Shown piece after piece: positions 1 through 6,156 of a stretch of DNA of 6,156 nucleotides. Under the pieces are notes generated by a model. It searched no databases, was not told where the DNA came from, and was given only the letters and a program-made list of their open reading frames with translations. Source of the stretch: an uncultured Dysosmobacter sp. (GTDB lineage Bacteria; Bacillota; Clostridia; Oscillospirales; Oscillospiraceae); NCBI GenBank assembly GCA_934597465.1, contig CAKTSC010000095.1, forward strand, positions 1 through 6,156, given 5' to 3'. A program made the translations under genes and the position numbers. How positions within the stretch are numbered: the first letter of the stretch is position 1; each line of letters starts with the position of its first letter.

Positions 1-631
1 CAACACCGCAGCGCTGGCGGATCTCCCCGGCGATGGCCCGGGCCCGCTCCGACTTCGGCTCCTCGCAGTTGAGCAGGACGAGGAAGGGCTTCCCCAGCTC
101 CTGCAGCTCCCGGATGACCCGCTCCTCCGGCTCCCGGTAGTCCTCCCGGGGGATGCCCGCAATGCTGCCGTCGGTGGTGATGACGATGCCGATGGTGGAG
201 TGCTCCCGGATGACCTTCCGGGTACCGGTCTCCGCCGCCTCCGTCATGGGGATCTCATGGTCAAACCAGGGGGTGGTGACCATCCGGGGGGCGTCCCCCT
301 CCAGCTGGCCCATGGCTCCGGGCACCATGTAGCCCACGCAGTCGATGAGGCGGACGGAGACCGCTGCGCCCCCCTCCAGCGTCACCTGGGCGGCCTCCTC
401 CGGCACGAATTTGGGCTCCGCCGTCATGATCGTCCGACCGGAGCCGCTCTGGGGCAGCTCATCCCGGGCCCGCTCCCGGCGGTAGACGTTGTCAATGTGG
501 GGGATGACCTGCGTCTCCATGAAACGCTTGATGAAGGTGGACTTCCCCGTTCTGACCGGGCCCACGACGCCGATGTAGATGTCGCCCGCCGTCCGCGTGG
601 CGATGCTCTGGTAGATAGATGTGTTTGTCAT
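1..631 (-). CDS. spoIVA: Stage IV sporulation protein A (SpoIVA), N-terminal part, 3' end outside window
   Basis: SpoIVA is the mother-cell ATPase that polymerises on the outer forespore membrane to form the base of the spore coat and is also needed for cortex formation. The reading frame is open from ATG at 631 to the window edge: 210 codons of a protein that is about 490 residues in B. subtilis. Seen in the translation: Walker A GPVRTGKST at residues 24-32; the family segment DELPQSGSGRTIMTAEPKF starting at residue 58; Walker B-type RLIDCVGY with Asp97; and EHSTIGIVITTDGSI from residue 143. Residue numbers match the B. subtilis protein as I recall it with no gap through residue 97. The start is set by AAGGGA at 641-646, nine bases upstream, and by the family-typical N-terminus MTNTSIYQSIATRTAGDIY. 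One oddity: position 71, Thr in the B. subtilis TIMTTEP motif, is Ala here. The gene is divergent from the ABC operon. The identification is very secure; the missing C-terminal half cannot be judged. Confidence 0.96.
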   Translation of the reverse strand, partial: MTNTSIYQSIATRTAGDIYIGVVGPVRTGKSTFIKRFMETQVIPHIDNVYRRERARDELPQSGSGRTIMTAEPKFVPEEAAQVTLEGGAAVSVRLIDCVGYMVPGAMGQLEGDAPRMVTTPWFDHEIPMTEAAETGTRKVIREHSTIGIVITTDGSIAGIPREDYREPEERVIRELQELGKPFLVLLNCEEPKSERARAIAGEIRQRCGV

Positions 632-669
632 AGTATCCCGTCCCTTTCCGCGCTCCATGCTGATGCTGT

Positions 670-698
670 ATCCTATGTTTCCTGGTGGGCAAGTATGC
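670..698 (-). promoter_or_regulatory. Sigma-E-like promoter of spoIVA
   Basis: Read on the minus strand, GCATACT (698-692) is followed by exactly 14 bases and then CATAGGAT (677-670). The B. subtilis sigma-E consensus as I recall it is KMATATT, 14-15 bases, CATACAMT, which gives 6 of 7 and 6 of 8 matches. Transcription would start near 662, leaving a leader of about 30 bases that contains the AAGGGA ribosome binding site. spoIVA is a known sigma-E gene in B. subtilis, and sipL in this window has the same arrangement. No start site has been mapped here, so this is a pattern match. Confidence 0.72.
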
Positions 699-706
699 CG
701 CCATGT

Positions 707-746
707 CCGGCCTGGAGGGGCCGGCGGAGGGGGGGCTCTTCCGCCG
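707..746. repeat. Overlapping GC-rich inverted repeats in the spoIVA/ABC divergent spacer
   Basis: CCGGCC (707-712) and GGCCGG (719-724) form a perfect 6-bp stem with a 6-base loop. CGGCGGA (722-728) and TCCGCCG (740-746) form a second perfect 7-bp stem that continues inward with G-U and G-C pairs. The two stems share bases 722-724, so they cannot form fully at the same time. Neither is followed by a clear T-run on either strand, so neither reads as a normal terminator. They lie just upstream of the spoIVA -35 element. The function is unknown, and chance in GC-rich DNA remains possible for stems this short. Confidence 0.35.
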
Positions 747-818
747 CGCAACCCCGGTTTTGTGCAGAATATCCAGTTTTGCTCGGTAGATTTTGTTTGG
801 TTTCTTCAATTTTCCCAC

Positions 819-848
819 TTTACAAGCAACGAATTAGCGTGGTAAACT
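819..848 (+). promoter_or_regulatory. Candidate vegetative promoter of the ABC operon
   Basis: TTTACA (819-824, 5 of 6 to TTGACA) is followed by 18 bases and TAAACT (843-848, 4 of 6 to TATAAT). It lies in the only clearly AT-rich patch of this spacer and about 50 bases upstream of the first gene of the operon. The -10 match is modest and other AT-rich hexamers nearby, such as TAATGT at 851-856, could serve instead, so the exact box assignment is uncertain. Confidence 0.38.
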
Positions 849-854
849 GCTAAT
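833..854. promoter_or_regulatory. Operator-like dyad ATTAGC-N10-GCTAAT
   Basis: ATTAGC (833-838) and GCTAAT (849-854) are perfect inverted arms separated by 10 bases, so the arm centres are 16 bases apart. The dyad covers the spacer and -10 region of the candidate promoter of the ABC operon, which is where a repressor would act. It is not followed by a T-run. Six-base arms in AT-rich DNA can arise by chance, so this is suggestive only. Confidence 0.28.
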
Positions 855-898
855 GTAATAAATGATACGGCACCGCCGTAGACAAGGAGGAACATAAC

Positions 899-1729
899 AT
901 GATGAAGAAACTGATGGCGCTGGCTCTTGCCGGTGTGATGACCCTTTCCCTGGCCGCCTGCGGGAACAGCAATACCCCCGCCGCGTCCTCCGGCTCCGGC
1001 AGCGCCGGCAGCGGCGAGGATACCGCCCTGACCTACGCCGTGGAGGCCGGCTCCGCCGGGGAGGAGGTTGCCAAGGAGAACGGCTTCGATGTGGTCTCTG
1101 TGGACTCCCAGGCCAAGGCCCTGATGGAGGTGGAGGCCGGTACCGCCGATGCCGCCATCATCGACCTGCTGATGGCCGGCGCCATGGTGGGCGAGGGCAC
1201 CAGCTATCCCGACCTGAAGGTCACCGACCAGAAGCTGAATTCCGAGGAGTACGGCATCGGCTGCCGCAAGGGCAGCGACCTGGCCTCCTACATCAACGCC
1301 GTTCTGGGCGAGGCCTACGCCGACGGTACCATGCAGACCATCGCTGAGACCTACGGCGTGCAGGAAGCCCTCCTCCCCCAGGAGACCAGCGAGTTCACCG
1401 CCTCTGAGGCGGACAGCGACGTGGCCTACATCCAGGACAAGGGCACGCTGATCGTCGGCATCACCAACTTCGCCCCCATGGACTACGAGGAGACGGCCGG
1501 CAGCGGCGAGTGGATCGGCTTTGACGCCGACATGGCAAAGCTTGTGGCAGAGAAGCTGGGCGTTGAGATCCAGTTCGTAGAGATCGAGTGGGACAACAAG
1601 GTCTTCGAGCTCAACGGCAAGACCATCGACGTGGTCTGGAACGGCATGACCCTCACCGACGCCGTGATGGAGGCCATGGAGTGCACCAACGCCTACTGCC
1701 AGAACGCCCAGGTGGTCATCACCAAGTAA
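899..1729 (+). CDS. ABC transporter substrate-binding lipoprotein (family 3), halves in permuted order
   Basis: This is the extracellular binding protein of a polar amino-acid-type importer, 276 residues. It has a lipoprotein signal peptide with lipobox LAAC and lipidated Cys21, then a Gly/Ser/Ala-rich linker to about residue 42. Usual family 3 order is an N-terminal half (GTLVVG...GFD.D.A...) followed by a C-terminal half (AV..GS.GE...). Here the C-terminal half comes first: AVEAGSAGEEVA from residue 47, DSQAKALMEVEAGTADAAIID to residue 89, EEYGIGCRKGSDL at 116-128 and ADGTMQTIAETYGV at 141-154. A linker then leads to the N-terminal half: GTLIVGITNFAPMDYEE from residue 182, GFDADMAKLVAEKLGV at 207-222, WDNKVFELNGKTIDVVWNGM to residue 250. 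It ends at NAQVVITK, where the hinge crossing normally lies. The frame is continuous with no frameshift. AAGGAGG at 884-890 lies eight bases before ATG 899; ATG 902 is an alternative. The family call is secure; the ligand is unknown. Confidence 0.9.
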   Translation: MMKKLMALALAGVMTLSLAACGNSNTPAASSGSGSAGSGEDTALTYAVEAGSAGEEVAKENGFDVVSVDSQAKALMEVEAGTADAAIIDLLMAGAMVGEGTSYPDLKVTDQKLNSEEYGIGCRKGSDLASYINAVLGEAYADGTMQTIAETYGVQEALLPQETSEFTASEADSDVAYIQDKGTLIVGITNFAPMDYEETAGSGEWIGFDADMAKLVAEKLGVEIQFVEIEWDNKVFELNGKTIDVVWNGMTLTDAVMEAMECTNAYCQNAQVVITK

Positions 1730-1761
1730 ATCCCCTTTCCGCCAACCAAGAAAACGACTTT

Positions 1762-1813
1762 CCATCGCCGCGAAGGCAGAGAGCACCCGCTCTCTGCCTT
1801 TGGGCGGCGATGG
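1762..1813 (+). other. Large intergenic stem-loop between binding-protein and permease genes
   Basis: The inner stem pairs 1773-1784 with 1789-1800 (12 perfect pairs, loop ACCC). The outer stem pairs CCATCGCCGC (1762-1771) with GCGGCGATGG (1804-1813), 10 perfect pairs. They are separated by a small 1-by-3 internal loop, for 22 pairs in all. No T-run follows the outer stem and only TTT follows the inner one, so full termination is unlikely. In transporter operons such a structure after the binding-protein gene commonly protects the upstream mRNA or lets only part of transcription through, giving excess binding protein. That role is inferred here; the structure itself is plain in the sequence. 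Confidence 0.75.
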
Positions 1814-1842
1814 GGCATCACGCTTTTGAAGGAGAATGACCC

Positions 1843-2568
1843 ATGTTCTGGACTGTTACCCTCTCCATCCTGCAGGGCTGCGGCGAGGCTGCCAAGCTCT
1901 TTTTCCTGACGCTGCTCTTCGCCCTGCCGCTGGGCCTGGTGGTGGCCTTCGGCTCCATGAACAAGTGGGCCCCCTTCCGCTTCCTGCTCCGGGGCAAGGG
2001 CACCCCCGGCGGCGTGTGGCGGGCGCTGGCCGCCTTCCGGCCCATCAGCGCCCTGACGAACCTCATCGTCTGGGTCATCCGGGGCACACCGCTGATTCTG
2101 CAGCTCATCATCATCTTCTACGGCCCCGGCATGTGGTTCAAGGCCAACCCCTGGAACGCCTTCTCCGACGGGCGGATGTTCGCCTGCACCCTGGCCTTCG
2201 TCATCAACTACGCCTGCTACTTCTCCGTCATCTACCGGGGCGGTATCGAGGGCGTCCCCGCCGGGCAGCGGGAGGCCGGGCAGGTCCTGGGCCTCACCCG
2301 GAGCCAGATCTTCTTCAAGGTCACACTGCTGCAGATGGTCAAGCGCATCGTGCCCCCCATGTCCAACGAGGTCATCACCCTGGTGAAGGACACCTCCCTG
2401 GCCCGGGTCATCGCCATCACGGAGATCACCAAGGCCGGTGAGGCCTTCATGAAATCCGCTGGCATCACCTGGCCCCTCTTCTACACGGCGGTCTTCTACC
2501 TGGCCTTCGTGGGCATCCTCACCATCCTCTTCCACTTCATTGAGCGCAAGCTCAGCTACTTCCGCTGA
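1843..2568 (+). CDS. Polar amino acid ABC transporter permease (HisM/GlnP type)
   Basis: This is the membrane-spanning subunit of the importer, 241 residues and close to the family's usual length. Hydrophobic segments lie at about residues 17-37, 70-93, 112-131 and 210-230, with further hydrophobic stretches between them. IRGTPLILQ at 79-87 is the characteristic motif of the HisM/GlnP family. The cytoplasmic EAA loop that docks on the ATPase begins at REAGQVLGLTRSQIFFKV (143-160), and LVKDTSLARVIAI at 180-192 is also family-typical. AAGGAG at 1829-1834 lies eight bases before the ATG. A 113-base spacer containing a large stem-loop separates it from the binding-protein gene, and only 14 bases separate it from the ATPase gene. 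There is one permease gene, so the channel is probably a homodimer. The family is secure; the transported compound cannot be read from the sequence. Confidence 0.94.
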   Translation: MFWTVTLSILQGCGEAAKLFFLTLLFALPLGLVVAFGSMNKWAPFRFLLRGKGTPGGVWRALAAFRPISALTNLIVWVIRGTPLILQLIIIFYGPGMWFKANPWNAFSDGRMFACTLAFVINYACYFSVIYRGGIEGVPAGQREAGQVLGLTRSQIFFKVTLLQMVKRIVPPMSNEVITLVKDTSLARVIAITEITKAGEAFMKSAGITWPLFYTAVFYLAFVGILTILFHFIERKLSYFR

Positions 2569-2582
2569 AAGGGGGACATACC

Positions 2583-3347
2583 ATGGCGATCCTGGACGTA
2601 CAGCACATTGAGAAGCACTTCGGCGGCACCCAGGTGCTGCGGGATATCAGCTTTTCCCTGGAGGAGGGCCAGGCCCTCTCCATCATCGGCTCCTCCGGCA
2701 GCGGTAAGACTACCCTGCTCCGCTGCCTGAACTTTCTGGAGACCCCGGACAAGGGCGTGATCTCCGTCCGGGGCGAGACGCTCTTTGACGCGGAGGACAC
2801 CCGCCGCCCCTCCGAGGCGGAGATCCGCCAGCGGCGGCTCCACTTCGGCCTGGTGTTCCAGTCCTTCAACCTCTTCCCCCAGTATACGGCCCTGCAGAAC
2901 GTCACCCTGGCCCGGGAGCTCATGGCCAAGGAAAACCACGAGAGCCGGGACGCCATCCTGCAGGAGGGCCGGGAGCTCCTGGGACGGATGGGCCTTGCCG
3001 ACCGGGCGGAGCACTACCCCCACCAGCTCTCCGGCGGTCAGCAGCAGCGGGTGGCCATTGCCCGGGCCCTGGCTCTGAAGCCGGACATCCTCTGCTTCGA
3101 CGAGCCCACCTCCGCCCTGGATCCGGAGCTCACCGGCGAGGTGCTGAAGGTCATCCGGTCTCTGGCTCAACAGAAGACCACCATGATCATCGTCACCCAC
3201 GAGATGGCCTTCGCCCGGGACGTGGCGGATCAGGTGATCTTCATGGACGGCGGCGTCATCGTGGAGCAGGGCCCCGCCCGGGAGGTCATCGACCACCCCC
3301 GGGAGGAGCGCACGAAGCACTTCCTCTCCCGCTTCGCCCAGCAGTAA
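2583..3347 (+). CDS. Polar amino acid ABC transporter ATP-binding protein (GlnQ/HisP type)
   Basis: This is the cytoplasmic ATPase that drives the importer, 254 residues. All nucleotide-binding elements are present: Walker A GSSGSGKTT at 36-44, Q-loop Gln93 in VFQSFNLFP, signature LSGGQQQR at 149-156, Walker B ILCFDEP at 169-175 with catalytic Glu174, D-loop SALD at 177-180, and switch His206 in VTHEM. LLRCLNFLE just after Walker A is typical of the GlnQ/HisP group. The ATG lies 14 bases after the permease stop, with the purine-rich AAAGGGGGA immediately upstream as ribosome binding site. It is the last gene of the operon, followed by two tandem hairpin terminators. Nothing is truncated or missing. 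Confidence 0.96.
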   Translation: MAILDVQHIEKHFGGTQVLRDISFSLEEGQALSIIGSSGSGKTTLLRCLNFLETPDKGVISVRGETLFDAEDTRRPSEAEIRQRRLHFGLVFQSFNLFPQYTALQNVTLARELMAKENHESRDAILQEGRELLGRMGLADRAEHYPHQLSGGQQQRVAIARALALKPDILCFDEPTSALDPELTGEVLKVIRSLAQQKTTMIIVTHEMAFARDVADQVIFMDGGVIVEQGPAREVIDHPREERTKHFLSRFAQQ

Positions 3348-3350
3348 GAA

Positions 3351-3386
3351 GAAAGCGCCGCGCCCGGGATCGGGCGCGGCACTTTC
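3351..3386. terminator. Hairpin terminator after the ABC operon, possibly bidirectional
   Basis: GCCGCGCCCG (3357-3366) pairs perfectly with CGGGCGCGGC (3371-3380) around the loop GGAT. After one C-A mismatch the stem continues with GAAAG (3351-3355) and CTTTC (3382-3386). On the plus strand it starts three bases after the ATPase stop and its descending arm ends in CTTTCC. On the minus strand it lies downstream of sipL and is followed by the T-rich CTTTCTTCTTAC. It can therefore serve both convergent units, although neither T-tract is long. Confidence 0.72.
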
Positions 3387-3400
3387 CGCTGTTTCTGCCA

Positions 3401-3434
3401 TCCGACAAGGAGTTTCCCTTGCCGGATACTTTTT
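3401..3434 (+). terminator. Second rho-independent terminator of the ABC operon
   Basis: TCCGACAAGG (3401-3410) pairs with CCTTGCCGGA (3417-3426), nine of ten pairs with one A-C mismatch, around the loop AGTTTC. TAC and a run of five T (3430-3434) follow directly. This is a textbook plus-strand terminator that backs up the hairpin at 3351-3386 and shields the sipL 3' end from read-through. Confidence 0.8.
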
Positions 3435-3467
3435 GCCTTTAGGAGCGGCCGCACCCATTTCCCGCGC

Positions 3468-5009
3468 TCAGACCCGCCGCCGGGGGATCAGCAGGAGCTG
3501 CCCCGTGTGGGCGTCCTCCTCACTCTCCAGGCCGTTGGCCGCCAGGATCACGGGGATCGTGCTGCGGCAGCGCTTGGCGAGATCCCACAGCTCCTCCTCC
3601 GGCCCCAGGCTCCGCAGCACCAGGGACGGCAGGCCCGCAAGCTCCAGCGGCGTCTCCTCCCAGTGGGCGGCGGCGATGCTGGCCCGCTTCCGCGTCCGGC
3701 AGCACTGGGCCCGGAACTCCAGGGCGAACCGCAGCTCGATGCCCCGCTCCCCCAGGCTCCCCTGGGGCTCCTCCGGGCAGCAGACCGTGGCCTCCAGGCG
3801 GCCGTCCTCCGGCCAGTCCATGGGGCAGCTCACCTCCACGCTGCGCTCCGCCGCCAGGGGTGCGCCGCCCTCGTCCAGGTAGAGGGCCCGGATGCGGCAG
3901 GTGCAGCGAAGGCTGCCGCCCTCCCCTTCCCGCAGCGCCGTCACGGCACCGCAGCGGACGGAGACATCCAGCAGCGTCTCCGCTACCACACCGACCTCCA
4001 GCAGCTCCCGGACGCTCTGGCGGCGAACGCCCAAGTCCTCGTACTCCGTCAGCAGCAGGGGCTCGGCCTCGTAGCTGAGCTCATAGGCGGTGCTGTAAAG
4101 ATCCCGCAGCAGCGTCAGCTCCACCTCCCGGCGGAGGAGGGCCACGGCATGGAGGGACAGCGTCACGGAAAGGCTCCGCCCCTCCCCTTCCCCGGCGGCC
4201 AGCTGGATATCACAGCCGCTGAGCTGCAGGCGGACTTCGGCGGTGGCCTCCGGCTCCTCGCCCCCCAGCTCCAGGATCTGCGAGAAGGGCAGCTCCCCCG
4301 CAGCGGAGCAGCACTTCCCCCCCGCCGTCCGGTAGAGGACGGAGAGGGAGAAGGCGCCCTTCACCAGAAGCTTTCCCCCCAGAAGTTTGCAGTCGCCTAC
4401 CAGGGGGGTGCAGCGGCCGGCCAGGATCTCCGCCGCCCCCTCCCGCCCGGCGGAGAGGCCCCAGGTGTCCGAAAAGGTGAAGTCCTTCTCCGCCACCCGG
4501 GTCAGGAGGGTGGTCTTCCGGCACTCCTGCCGCTTCTCCAGCCCTAGCTCCGGCGGGGCGCTGACGTCGCTGGAAAACTGCAGCGGCGCGGGGCGGCAGG
4601 GGCTCACGCGCACCGTCAGGCGGCAGCGGGTAAAGACCTTCCGGGGATTCAGGAGCCGGGTCTCCAGGCTCTCCACCCCCGCCTCCGCCAGGAGGCACAC
4701 CGCCTCCCCCATTCCCTCCGCCTGGGCGGTGAAGGGCAGGGAGAGGGCCAGGCTCCGGATGCCGCCCTCCCCGTCCGGAACGTAGAGCAGCGTCAGGCGC
4801 ACCACGCCGCTGACCTCCGCCCGGCCGCCGGAGACCTCCCGCCGGTGCAGGAAGGCCCTGCCCTCCGCGTCAATGATCCGGGCGATGTCCGGGCAGTAGT
4901 CCGGTACCACGGTCTCCGCCGTCTCCTCCTGGGTCACGGCCTGCTCCGCCCCGATGGCAAAGGCGTCCAGGGTGCTTTTCTTCCATTCCAATTCCATTCC
5001 TGCATCCAT
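3468..5009 (-). CDS. sipL: SipL-like spore coat morphogenetic protein (SPOCS/DUF3794 repeats plus LysM)
   Basis: SipL is the clostridial counterpart of SpoVID. It works in the mother cell, binds SpoIVA and encases the forespore in coat; in C. difficile the LysM domain carries the SpoIVA contact. The protein has 513 residues, no signal peptide and no membrane segment. SPOCS-like blocks occur at about 35-135 (starting VPDYCPDIARIIDAEG, with VSGVVRLTLLYVPDG), 190-285 (AEILAGRCTPLVGDCKLLGGK, then LSVLYR) and 335-440 (LEVGVVAETLLDVS, then CRIRALYLDEGG). A C-terminal LysM lies at about 465-510, with LWDLAKRCRSTIPVILAANGL followed by GQLLLIP. The start at 5009 has AAGGGG five bases upstream; Met5 at 4997 is a weaker alternative. 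A sigma-E-like promoter precedes it and spoVM lies just upstream. DUF3794-LysM proteins can be annotated only as LysM proteins, but linkage to spoIVA and spoVM favours SipL. Confidence 0.88.
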   Translation of the reverse strand: MDAGMELEWKKSTLDAFAIGAEQAVTQEETAETVVPDYCPDIARIIDAEGRAFLHRREVSGGRAEVSGVVRLTLLYVPDGEGGIRSLALSLPFTAQAEGMGEAVCLLAEAGVESLETRLLNPRKVFTRCRLTVRVSPCRPAPLQFSSDVSAPPELGLEKRQECRKTTLLTRVAEKDFTFSDTWGLSAGREGAAEILAGRCTPLVGDCKLLGGKLLVKGAFSLSVLYRTAGGKCCSAAGELPFSQILELGGEEPEATAEVRLQLSGCDIQLAAGEGEGRSLSVTLSLHAVALLRREVELTLLRDLYSTAYELSYEAEPLLLTEYEDLGVRRQSVRELLEVGVVAETLLDVSVRCGAVTALREGEGGSLRCTCRIRALYLDEGGAPLAAERSVEVSCPMDWPEDGRLEATVCCPEEPQGSLGERGIELRFALEFRAQCCRTRKRASIAAAHWEETPLELAGLPSLVLRSLGPEEELWDLAKRCRSTIPVILAANGLESEEDAHTGQLLLIPRRRV

Positions 5010-5036
5010 CCTTTCCCCTTGGTATGTCCTGCTGAG

Positions 5037-5065
5037 AGCTTATGCGCCAGAGCGGGCGGGTATGC
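5037..5065 (-). promoter_or_regulatory. Sigma-E-like promoter of sipL
   Basis: Read on the minus strand, GCATACC (5065-5059), 14 bases, then CATAAGCT (5044-5037). This gives 5 of 7 and 6 of 8 matches to the B. subtilis sigma-E consensus KMATATT-N14/15-CATACAMT as I recall it, and it is nearly the same as the spoIVA promoter in this window, with the same 14-base spacer. Transcription would start near 5030, giving a leader of about 20 bases. It lies in the 80-base gap after spoVM, just beyond the spoVM terminator hairpin. Confidence 0.7.
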
Positions 5066-5076
5066 CGGAAACGGGA

Positions 5077-5103
5077 AGGAGGAGGGATCTCATCCCTCCT
5101 CCT
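5077..5103 (-). terminator. Stem-loop overlapping the spoVM stop codon
   Basis: Bases 5077-5088 (AGGAGGAGGGAT) pair perfectly with 5092-5103 (ATCCCTCCTCCT), a 12-bp stem with the 3-base loop 5089-5091. On the minus strand it is followed by TTCCCGTTTCC, which is only moderately T-rich. The descending order puts the last spoVM codons (Gln-Glu-Glu-Gly) and its TGA (5092-5090) inside the stem and loop. It probably ends the spoVM transcript and insulates the sipL promoter a few bases further on. Confidence 0.62.
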
Positions 5104-5167
5104 GATGAAAGAGCCTGCGCAGCAGCCCCCGCAGGGCCTTGGGGGACTTCCAGACGATGATCCGCAT
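5090..5167 (-). CDS. spoVM: SpoVM-like amphipathic sporulation micro-protein (25 aa)
   Basis: SpoVM is the 26-residue amphipathic helix that inserts into the convex forespore outer membrane and anchors SpoIVA there. This frame encodes 25 residues starting MRIIVWKSPKALRG. Aligned without gaps to B. subtilis SpoVM (MKFYTIKLPKFLGG...), it shares Met1, Lys7, Pro9, Lys10, Leu12, Gly14 and Arg17, with hydrophobic residues at 15, 16, 19 and 20. Pro9 is the residue known to matter for curvature sensing. The start is fixed by AGGGAGG at 5178-5184, ten bases upstream. The same frame runs open further upstream to 5545, but that extension is Arg/Gly/Pro-rich and overlaps the neighbouring membrane-protein gene, so I reject it. 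It lies 17 bases after the 52-codon membrane gene and probably shares its transcript. The identification rests on a very short alignment plus the strong context of sipL and spoIVA. Confidence 0.85.
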   Translation of the reverse strand: MRIIVWKSPKALRGLLRRLFHQEEG

Positions 5168-5184
5168 GGTACCCGAACCTCCCT

Positions 5185-5343
5185 TCACCGGCGGCGGCAG
5201 CAGCCGCAGCCGCAGGCGATGAGAAGGAAGGCCACCAGAAAGAGCAGCGCCCCCACCGGAAAGATAGCCGCGATGAGGATCCCCGCCCCCAGGGCGATGC
5301 CGAAGATCCCGATGAGGTATCCGCCGCCGTTCCCACGAAACAT
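5185..5343 (-). CDS. Small hydrophobic membrane protein with Cys/Arg tail (52 aa), unrecognised
   Basis: I do not recognise a named family. The protein has 52 residues. It starts MFRGNGGGYLIGIFGIALG, is hydrophobic from about residue 9 to 43 (two short helices with a Phe-Pro break at residues 28-29), and ends in a Cys-rich basic tail, ACGCGCCRRR. The four tail cysteines lie at residues 44, 46, 48 and 49. Such a tail could sit at the membrane surface, bind metal or be acylated; none of these is shown. AAGGGAG at 5354-5360 lies ten bases before the ATG, the same spacing as at spoVM. Its stop is 17 bases before the spoVM start, with the spoVM ribosome binding site directly after the stop codon, so the two are probably co-transcribed and may act together during sporulation. 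Codon use and GC content match the neighbours. Whether it is made is inferred only from the frame, ribosome binding site and spacing. Confidence 0.72.
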   Translation of the reverse strand: MFRGNGGGYLIGIFGIALGAGILIAAIFPVGALLFLVAFLLIACGCGCCRRR

Positions 5344-5371
5344 TCCCGTCACGCTCCCTTCTCCCTGCCCC

Positions 5372-5400
5372 AGTATATCCGCCGGGACAGGGGGTGGGAA
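5372..5400 (-). promoter_or_regulatory. Candidate promoter of the small membrane protein/spoVM pair
   Basis: On the minus strand, TATACT (5377-5372) is five of six to the vegetative -10 box, with TTCCCA (5400-5395, four of six to TTGACA) 17 bases upstream. The overlapping GATATACT is six of eight to a sigma-E -10, but nothing like a sigma-E -35 lies 14-15 bases before it. The start would be near 5365, about 20 bases before the ATG. Which sigma factor uses it, if any, is open. Confidence 0.35.
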
Positions 5401-5401
5401 C

Positions 5402-5427
5402 CCCGGCGGGAAAGTTTTCCCGCCGGG
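5402..5427. repeat. 26-base palindrome upstream of the small membrane protein gene
   Basis: CCCGGCGGGAAA (5402-5413) and TTTCCCGCCGGG (5416-5427) are perfect 12-base inverted arms separated by GT. It ends two bases short of the candidate -35 box at 5395-5400. No T-run follows on the minus strand, so it is either a weak terminator or a protein binding site. A 12-bp perfect match is unlikely by chance even in GC-rich DNA. Confidence 0.6.
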
Positions 5428-5458
5428 CGCCGTCCTCCCTTCCCGTACAGCCCGGCTC

Positions 5459-5490
5459 CCGGCGCGCCGTTTCCCCGTCCGGCCCGCCGG
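5459..5490. repeat. Imperfect GC-rich inverted repeat in the beta-helix/spoVM spacer
   Basis: CCGGCGCGCC (5459-5468) and GGCCCGCCGG (5481-5490) are inverted arms matching at nine of ten positions, with a 12-base loop. It contains the 8-base palindrome GGCGCGCC at 5461-5468. It has no T-run and its role is unclear; it is one of three strong hairpins in this 130-base stretch. Confidence 0.4.
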
Positions 5491-5505
5491 TAAGGGAGAT
5501 AAGCT

Positions 5506-5533
5506 GGGCCGCGGGGATCGCTCCCCGCGGCCC
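5506..5533 (-). terminator. Hairpin terminator after the beta-helix protein gene
   Basis: GGGCCGCGGGGA (5506-5517) pairs perfectly with TCCCCGCGGCCC (5522-5533), 12 pairs around a 4-base loop. It begins 11 bases after the TAA of the beta-helix gene on the minus strand and is followed there by AGCTTATCTCCCTT, a loose T-rich tail. Position and stem strength support a terminator; the weak U-tract lowers certainty. Confidence 0.65.
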
Positions 5534-5544
5534 GGCCGTCCGCA

Positions 5545-6156
5545 TTATTCAAAGGTCGCCTGGGAGAGATCCAGCGCGTAGTCCACGCGGTTGTCGATGT
5601 CGATCCCGTTGCCGGTGAAGACGCAGCCAGCGAGATCCAGCACCCAGTCCCCGCCCAACCCCTCGATGGCCATGCCCGTGCCGTTGCCCTCAAAGCGGTT
5701 CCTGAGGTAGCTGGGGCTGGCGTAGCTGTGCGTCCAGGTGTCCATCCGGAAGCCCACGCCGTTATTCCGGAAGGTGCAGTCCTGGGGCGTGGCCCAGGAG
5801 CCGTCCAGGGCGGCAATGCCCACCTCCCAGTTCTCAAAGAGGCAGTTATAGAGATACACCGCCTGCCCGGTGGCAAGGGCCGTGCCCGTACCGCTGCCCG
5901 CGAAGATCAGGTTTTGGAAGGAGACCACCGCCCCCTTGCCGTCGTGGATGGTGACGGGCTGGGTGAAAACGGTCTCCCCCTCCAGAGAGCCCAGCAGGCA
6001 GCAGGAGTGGTTCATGGAGATGGACCGGTCATAGGTCACGGCCGGGAGGTAGAGCGTCACCTCGATGTTGTCCGCCACCGTGGCGTCTATCTGATCCAGC
6101 AGGGCCTGGAGCTCCTCCGCCGTCTCCATAGGCACATCCTCCGCCCGGTAGCTGAG
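5545..6156 (-). CDS. Right-handed parallel beta-helix repeat protein, C-terminal part, 5' end probably outside window
   Basis: The minus-strand frame is open from the window edge to TAA at 5547-5545, giving 203 visible residues. It is rich in short beta-strand periods typical of parallel beta-helices of the pectate-lyase/NosD fold: IEVTLYLPAVTYDRSISM, then CLLGSLEGETVFTQPVTIH, VVSFQNLIFAGSGTGTAL, AVYLYNCLFENWEVGIAAL, DCTFRNNGVGFRM, YLRNRFEGNGTGMAIEGLG, LDLAGCVFTGNGIDIDNR. The recurring N-x-F/C-x-x-N-G pattern is the asparagine-ladder-like turn. I see no catalytic residues I could assign to a lyase, so the role (carbohydrate binding, surface or spore structure) is open. An internal start is possible at ATG 6129, preceded by GGAGGA, or at GTG 6135, but the frame stays open and sensible to the edge, so a longer protein is as likely. 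Whether it belongs to the spore cluster cannot be told. Confidence 0.75.
   Translation of the reverse strand, partial: LSYRAEDVPMETAEELQALLDQIDATVADNIEVTLYLPAVTYDRSISMNHSCCLLGSLEGETVFTQPVTIHDGKGAVVSFQNLIFAGSGTGTALATGQAVYLYNCLFENWEVGIAALDGSWATPQDCTFRNNGVGFRMDTWTHSYASPSYLRNRFEGNGTGMAIEGLGGDWVLDLAGCVFTGNGIDIDNRVDYALDLSQATFE

Follow-up and report, generated by a model that had tools for sequence, protein, structure and literature searches.

A hinge-permuted family 3 binding-protein homolog in an ABC importer cluster of Clostridia, and indications of repeated permutation of the same orthologous gene

Can the two halves of a substrate-binding protein (SBP) exchange places within one reading frame and still give the clamp that serves an ATP-binding cassette (ABC) importer? 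The question is raised by the gene at 899..1729 (+) of a 6,156-nucleotide stretch from an uncultured Dysosmobacter sp. (contig CAKTSC010000095.1, positions 1 to 6,156), referred to below as the window. Its 276-residue product, P0001, had been predicted from the letters alone to carry the halves of a family 3 binding protein in swapped order. Sequence comparison shows P0001 to be a single, intact binding-protein homolog of family 3 (PF00497) with circularly permuted halves. The explanation that best covers the findings as a whole, and which we regard as highly probable, is that P0001 is a hinge-permuted SBP homolog of an ABC importer that is predicted to form a normal clamp and would serve its own permease, with a lipid anchor that has likely been moved.

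Half order of P0001

The frame runs from an ATG at 899 to a stop codon at 1727-1729, downstream of a Shine-Dalgarno-like AAGGAGG (884..890, +). A predicted lipoprotein signal peptide (residues 1-21; 899..961, +) ends in LAAC, which we take to be a lipobox, with Cys21 as the predicted lipidated residue. At least 90% of a set of 81 permuted proteins keep this cysteine. In P0001 a serine/glycine-rich linker follows it. The usual second half of the family then comes first (residues 44-158; 1028..1372, +), comprising lobe 2 and the returning C-terminal part of lobe 1. A join from the usual C-terminus to the usual N-terminus (residues 159-173; 1373..1417, +) leads to the usual first half (residues 174-276; 1418..1726, +), the N-terminal part of lobe 1, with the hinge strand NAQVVITK at its end. 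The residue ranges given originally were right to about a dozen residues.

Two kinds of comparison agree on this order. The best match of P0001 among PDB sequences (phmmer) was TmArgBP (6svf; 102 bits in total), with P0001 residues 178-275 aligned to 6svf residues 6-102 (i-Evalue 1.8e-12) and P0001 residues 44-150 to 6svf residues 119-224 (3.5e-12), that is, in swapped order. A profile of 68 normal-order orthologs (239 columns) was also used in doubled form, in which the start and end columns of a match reveal the cut. It gave a single match in the window, starting at column 122, passing the wrap and ending at column 106 (343 bits), with ~15 columns of the usual hinge linker absent from P0001. 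No extra copy of either half was found elsewhere in the window when all six frames were scanned. The two comparisons bear out the claim of swapped halves in one unbroken frame, and they exclude a normal order, the outcome that the original prediction had named against itself.

The Pfam profile PF00497 scored 84.4 bits in P0001, above its gathering score of 26.4, with the match split into two stretches. Since Pfam meets a protein of this type as two partial stretches, the permuted form may easily be called a fragment. The usual family 3 layout, with both termini in lobe 1 and two continuous hinge strands, is not found in P0001; its halves are exchanged, and it is thus a permuted variant of PF00497 rather than an ordinary member.

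Predicted structure

An AlphaFold model of P0001 had a mean predicted local distance difference test score (pLDDT) of 88 and a predicted template modelling (TM) score of 0.77, with 10-residue block means of 87-98 from residue 41 on. A normal-order ortholog, L110, modelled as a control, gave a pLDDT of 91. The two models contain the same listed secondary-structure elements with the halves exchanged, except that the hinge-linker helix is absent from P0001 and one short strand is assigned differently in each. Structure prediction was among the checks suggested with the original claim, and the P0001 model shows the elements of the normal clamp in exchanged order; P0001 is predicted to fold into a normal two-lobed type II clamp.

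For Foldseek searches, the best 50 rows per model were compared. The L110 model gave full-length PDB matches (best E 1.6e-21, target TM up to 0.86). The P0001 model gave first-half matches, covering ~86 columns of TmArgBP at ~1.6 Å, and its whole-chain matches, among them OpuAC (like ProX, of the type II fold), were weak (best E 3.8e-6, target TM ≤0.60).

Normal-order orthologs and cut positions

Close relatives with the ordinary half order were abundant in the normal-order search, and one of them, P0123, stands for 245 member sequences. The normal-order orthologs share the landmarks of P0001 and reach 69% identity to it over aligned columns (L133). For two of them, L110 and L133, the gene cluster is of the same kind. 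Unlike P0001, these proteins (P0123, L110, L133) have the ordinary half order and a hinge linker. The 30 normal-order loci L110-L139 all have the same SBP-permease layout, with the ATPase gene next in 29 (L110 ends earlier).

Both orders occur among related genomes. In 300 genomes from the family of the Oscillibacter sp. PC13 genome, 172 match P0123 and 124 match P0001; at least 20 of the latter matches span both halves in permuted order (14 at 64-75% and 6 at 43-57% identity). P0001 is matched in 51 of 299 genomes from the family to which a Candidatus Acetatifactor genome belongs, and in 8 of the 51 the match runs through both halves. In each of 20 genomes chosen for their permuted loci, P0123 matched best to the permuted gene itself, in two swapped pieces, and the remaining listed P0123 matches in those genomes had 29-32% identity. 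The normal and permuted orders therefore look like alternative states of one orthologous gene.

All loci with a downstream permease were then counted, giving 186 clusters, of which 67 have the normal order and 119 a permuted one. The class of P0001, with the cut in the hinge linker (ends at about columns 106-109, starts at 108-122), accounts for 102 of these. In 6 clusters the cut falls inside lobe 2, past its first strand-helix pair (about columns 128-142), and in 11 it falls in the middle of lobe 2 (ends 171-179, starts 164-195). No new cut inside lobe 1 was seen in any of the 186 clusters. For the normal, hinge-cut, first lobe-2-cut and mid-lobe-2-cut classes, respectively, there were 67, 96, 6 and 11 distinct sequences, and an ATPase gene was found in 66, 96, 6 and 10 clusters. 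A lipobox-like motif precedes the fold in 64 of the 67 normal-order proteins and in 98, 6 and 10 members of the permuted classes. The join, taken between profile columns 229 and 11, has 24-30 residues in the 102 hinge-cut proteins (26 in P0001), 27-30 in the first lobe-2-cut class and 20-28 in the mid-lobe-2-cut class.

The most divergent permuted genes (L215-L219) do not always carry the cut of P0001. A search with L219 in 394 genomes of the order gave 175 matches, of which at least 17 are permuted, 15 of these from fetched regions. L219 and L243 are further complete permuted frames, and L237 is a complete hinge-cut frame with the lipobox Cys a few residues before the lobe-2 strand.

Which strands form the hinge was taken from the known family fold, and on this footing the hinge crossings in the L110 model were placed at about columns 102-107 and 185-200, with roughly one third of the chain between them. 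The observed cuts fall within this stretch or at its edge, so each permuted class would have its tether at the hinge or on lobe 2 and no longer on lobe 1. The position of the P0001 anchor at the hinge, as originally claimed, fits its cut and is kept here as a prediction from alignment and model. From there it might, as also proposed originally, alter how the permease senses closing.

Two cysteines near the C-terminus of P0001, Cys262 and Cys267, are kept in 99 and 92 of the 102 hinge-cut proteins; their columns hold cysteine in 42 and 41 of the 67 normal-order proteins and in none of the 6 members of the first lobe-2-cut class.

Binding-site landmarks

Landmarks that do not depend on the order of the halves are kept across the topologies, which supports the reading of P0001 as a permuted clamp. 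The lobe-2 Asp (column 168) is present in 184 of the 186 clusters, the Gly and Thr of the GMT motif in 185 and 184, and the columns of W62, K65, W78 and R201 are conserved in all 186. In ordinary family 3 amino-acid binders the Arg after GMT binds the alpha-carboxylate. This Arg is absent from P0001, which has Val256. Val also follows GMT in 88 of the 102 hinge-cut and 53 of the 67 normal-order proteins, with Arg in 19 of 186. By these alignments, loss of the Arg is typical of the whole orthologous group and not of permutation.

Alternative explanations

A scan of species-representative genomes with P0001 gave at least 558 relatives among at least 598 candidate stretches, and the best 80 loci were analysed; having been picked by similarity to a permuted query, they are biased towards its order and are no measure of how frequent it is. 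Half profiles found the second half (h2) before the first half (h1) in one open frame in 80 of the 80 (L066 is open at the contig start), so that the same order, which the original prediction had proposed to look for in relatives, is present there and chance is excluded. The record titles name Oscillospiraceae, Lachnospiraceae and other Clostridia, mostly as metagenome bins. One could suppose that two neighbouring binding-protein genes were fused in part by an assembly or sequencing artefact: one and a half repeats are found in some metagenome proteins (52 of 121 and 53 of 212), which could be such joins, and a second, distant normal-order gene lies upstream in 13 of the 80 loci. However, the 80 loci with the P0001 order come from separate records, the permuted gene also occurs in records that carry no metagenome-bin label, for example that of Oscillibacter sp. 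PC13 (L003), and a further permuted copy sits on a 2.55-Mb contig (L221). Moreover, the 102 hinge-cut members include 96 distinct sequences, and 172 of 172 binding-protein open reading frames (ORFs) at genome loci are two-halved, none having one and a half repeats. The artefact is already refuted at the level of the family, the shared order in the 80 loci excludes the assembly join that had been foreseen as a refutation, and we give this explanation almost no credence. A decaying gene, or a lipoprotein outside transport that has merely kept the fold, would fit the loss of the Arg after GMT, but this Arg is likewise lost in most normal-order orthologs. Frames are open in all of the best 80 loci, mean column identity across 81 proteins is 60%, and a permease gene is next in every one of the 80; decay or loss of the transport role is very unlikely.

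Two further alternatives concern how the halves pair and how often they were exchanged. In a domain-swapped dimer, the first half of one chain would pair with the second half of another, which is sterically conceivable given one open hinge crossing and a join of ~25 residues. Against this, the monomer model is confident and the near-constant join length in the 102 hinge-cut proteins is that expected of a fixed intrachain span, making the swapped dimer improbable. As to the number of exchanges, the permutation could have arisen once, with the normal-order orthologs being reversions or replacements and the topology not fluid. When only close permuted genes are included, one topology change indeed suffices, both for the permease plus ATPase (83 permuted and 53 normal rows) and for the halves (89 permuted and 57 normal rows). 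However, once the divergent genes are added, the number of changes required by a two-state label rises to 4 for the two halves joined (172 rows) and likewise to 4 for the permease plus ATPase (161 rows); taken singly, the first half requires 7 and the second half 4. Four-state trees of 75 of the 186 loci require 10 changes for the permease plus ATPase, 9 for the rotated SBP and 7 for the three proteins combined. Approximately unbiased (AU) tests on the combined data of these 75 rows reject a single clade of all 37 permuted rows (p = 4.5e-5) and one formed by the 21 hinge-cut rows (p = 8.4e-8), with the same outcome for the latter when the contig-edge row L218 is left out. In addition, three cut zones are incompatible with one unmodified event, and we consider a single origin of all permuted genes unlikely. 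Single origins within each of the two lobe-2-cut classes are possible, given p = 0.048 for the first and 0.46 for the mid-lobe-2 class.

From these trees, whose groups were partly named after the trees had been seen and whose searches were quick, we estimate at least four topology changes, and probably seven or more. A number of events drawn from trees in this way suggests that permutation of the same orthologous gene happened on several separate occasions. One normal-order gene, L176 (G032), has a permease and an ATPase that fall inside the permuted clade of P0001, and it is possibly a reversion or a gene swap.

Proposed mechanism and origin

In the mechanism we propose for a hinge-permuted clamp, a linker, as seen in the sequence, would have joined the former N- and C-termini, which both lie on lobe 1, with one hinge strand left continuous and the other opened and its linker deleted, as seen in the alignment. 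The open and closed states of the clamp would be kept. A monomeric clamp would then serve its own permease, handing a polar, probably amino-acid-like ligand to this adjacent partner, and the predicted lipid anchor would likely have moved from lobe 1 to lobe 2, on its hinge side.

The exchange probably arose by tandem duplication, in-frame fusion and loss of the outer halves. Duplication is made likely by tandem normal-order copies in L184, L185 and L186 and by the metagenome proteins with one and a half repeats. The latter (P0002, P0036, P0042 and others) have the arrangements h2-h1-h2 and h1-h2-h1, and they may be natural recombinants or chimeric assemblies.

A broader proposal, which we put forward tentatively and with somewhat less than even confidence, is that this is an importer lineage of Clostridia with fluid SBP topology. 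Selection would repeatedly have taken the lipid tether off lobe 1 and placed it at the hinge or on lobe 2, with cuts always between the hinge crossings and the tethered jaw exchanged. P0001 would then be one of at least four, and likely seven or more, changes, and a type II counterpart of the permuted type I proteins named Type Ic.

Relation to known binding proteins

P0001 resembles the family 3 SBPs of the type II fold (PF00497; TmArgBP, 6svf/4prs; GlnH; HisJ) in the homology of both halves, in the lobe-2 Asp and GxT, in the lipoprotein-type start and in the adjacent permease and ATPase genes. It differs from them in that the halves are exchanged, the hinge linker is missing and the termini have moved to the hinge; in most members of its group the Arg after GMT is replaced by Val.

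TpMglB-2 (Tp0684), for which the name Type Ic (or Cluster Bc) was proposed, is a glucose-binding lipoprotein of the type I fold whose chain is circularly permuted; Gram-positive gut bacteria have relatives of it, and its authors suggest an adaptation to anchoring (PMC4990184). TpMglB-2 and P0001 are both permuted, tethered SBPs of ABC importers, the tether of P0001 being predicted from its lipobox. TpMglB-2 has a type I fold, a sugar ligand and an N-lobe permutation that creates a fourth cross-over, and recurrence with different cuts is not described in the available text of that report (PMC4990184). P0001 has a similar layout but is not a Type Ic member, being family 3 by its Pfam and PDB sequence matches. 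Circular permutation also relates the glycine betaine-binding proteins OpuAC and ProX, as detected with CPSARST; these pairs were compared by structure at <24% identity (PMC2395249), whereas the orthologs in the P0001 group reach 69% and lie in the same cluster.

In the cited cases, as far as the available texts go, natural SBP permutation separates distant families. The gene of P0001 occurs in four chain orders in the same three-gene cluster of related species, and its normal-order relatives are built-in controls. How a permutation establishes itself, and what the position of the tether and of termini at the hinge means for ligand capture and hand-over to the permease, are thus directly testable. 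A literature search with few subscription papers among its sources turned up no account of a family 3 protein permuted in the lineage of P0001, nor of any orthologous cluster permuted repeatedly at different cuts.

Gene cluster and surroundings

P0001 has the adjacent permease and ATPase genes of a polar amino acid ABC importer. The permease gene (241 residues; 1843..2568, +) matches PF00528 above the gathering score, with ArtM and GlnP as best NCBIfam matches, below cut-off. The ATPase gene (254 residues; 2583..3347, +) matches PF00005 above the gathering score, and its best NCBIfam match, TcyN (cystine), is also below cut-off. In the best 80 loci the permease homolog lies directly downstream of the permuted gene in every case and is followed by an ATPase homolog in 76; the other 4 list no gene after the permease.

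The binding-protein gene is separated from the permease gene by 113 nucleotides, which fold at -52.5 kcal/mol (z -5.7) and contain a strong predicted hairpin of 25 pairs (1760..1815, +) that perhaps stabilises or attenuates the operon mRNA. Of 20 sources compared with Rfam, none gave a regulatory RNA; the sole match was an RNase P gene in L153.

The importer cluster is flanked by two sporulation genes, spoIVA (PF09547) and a SipL/SPOCS-LysM gene, at window positions 2-751 (-) and 3468-5009 (-). Reverse-strand ORFs that are similar by length lie on both sides in L003, L011 and L058. The distant normal-order family 3 SBP gene upstream of the permuted gene (L021, L072, L018 and 10 more of the 80 loci) stands in many of these 13 loci beside an ATPase or permease gene of its own.
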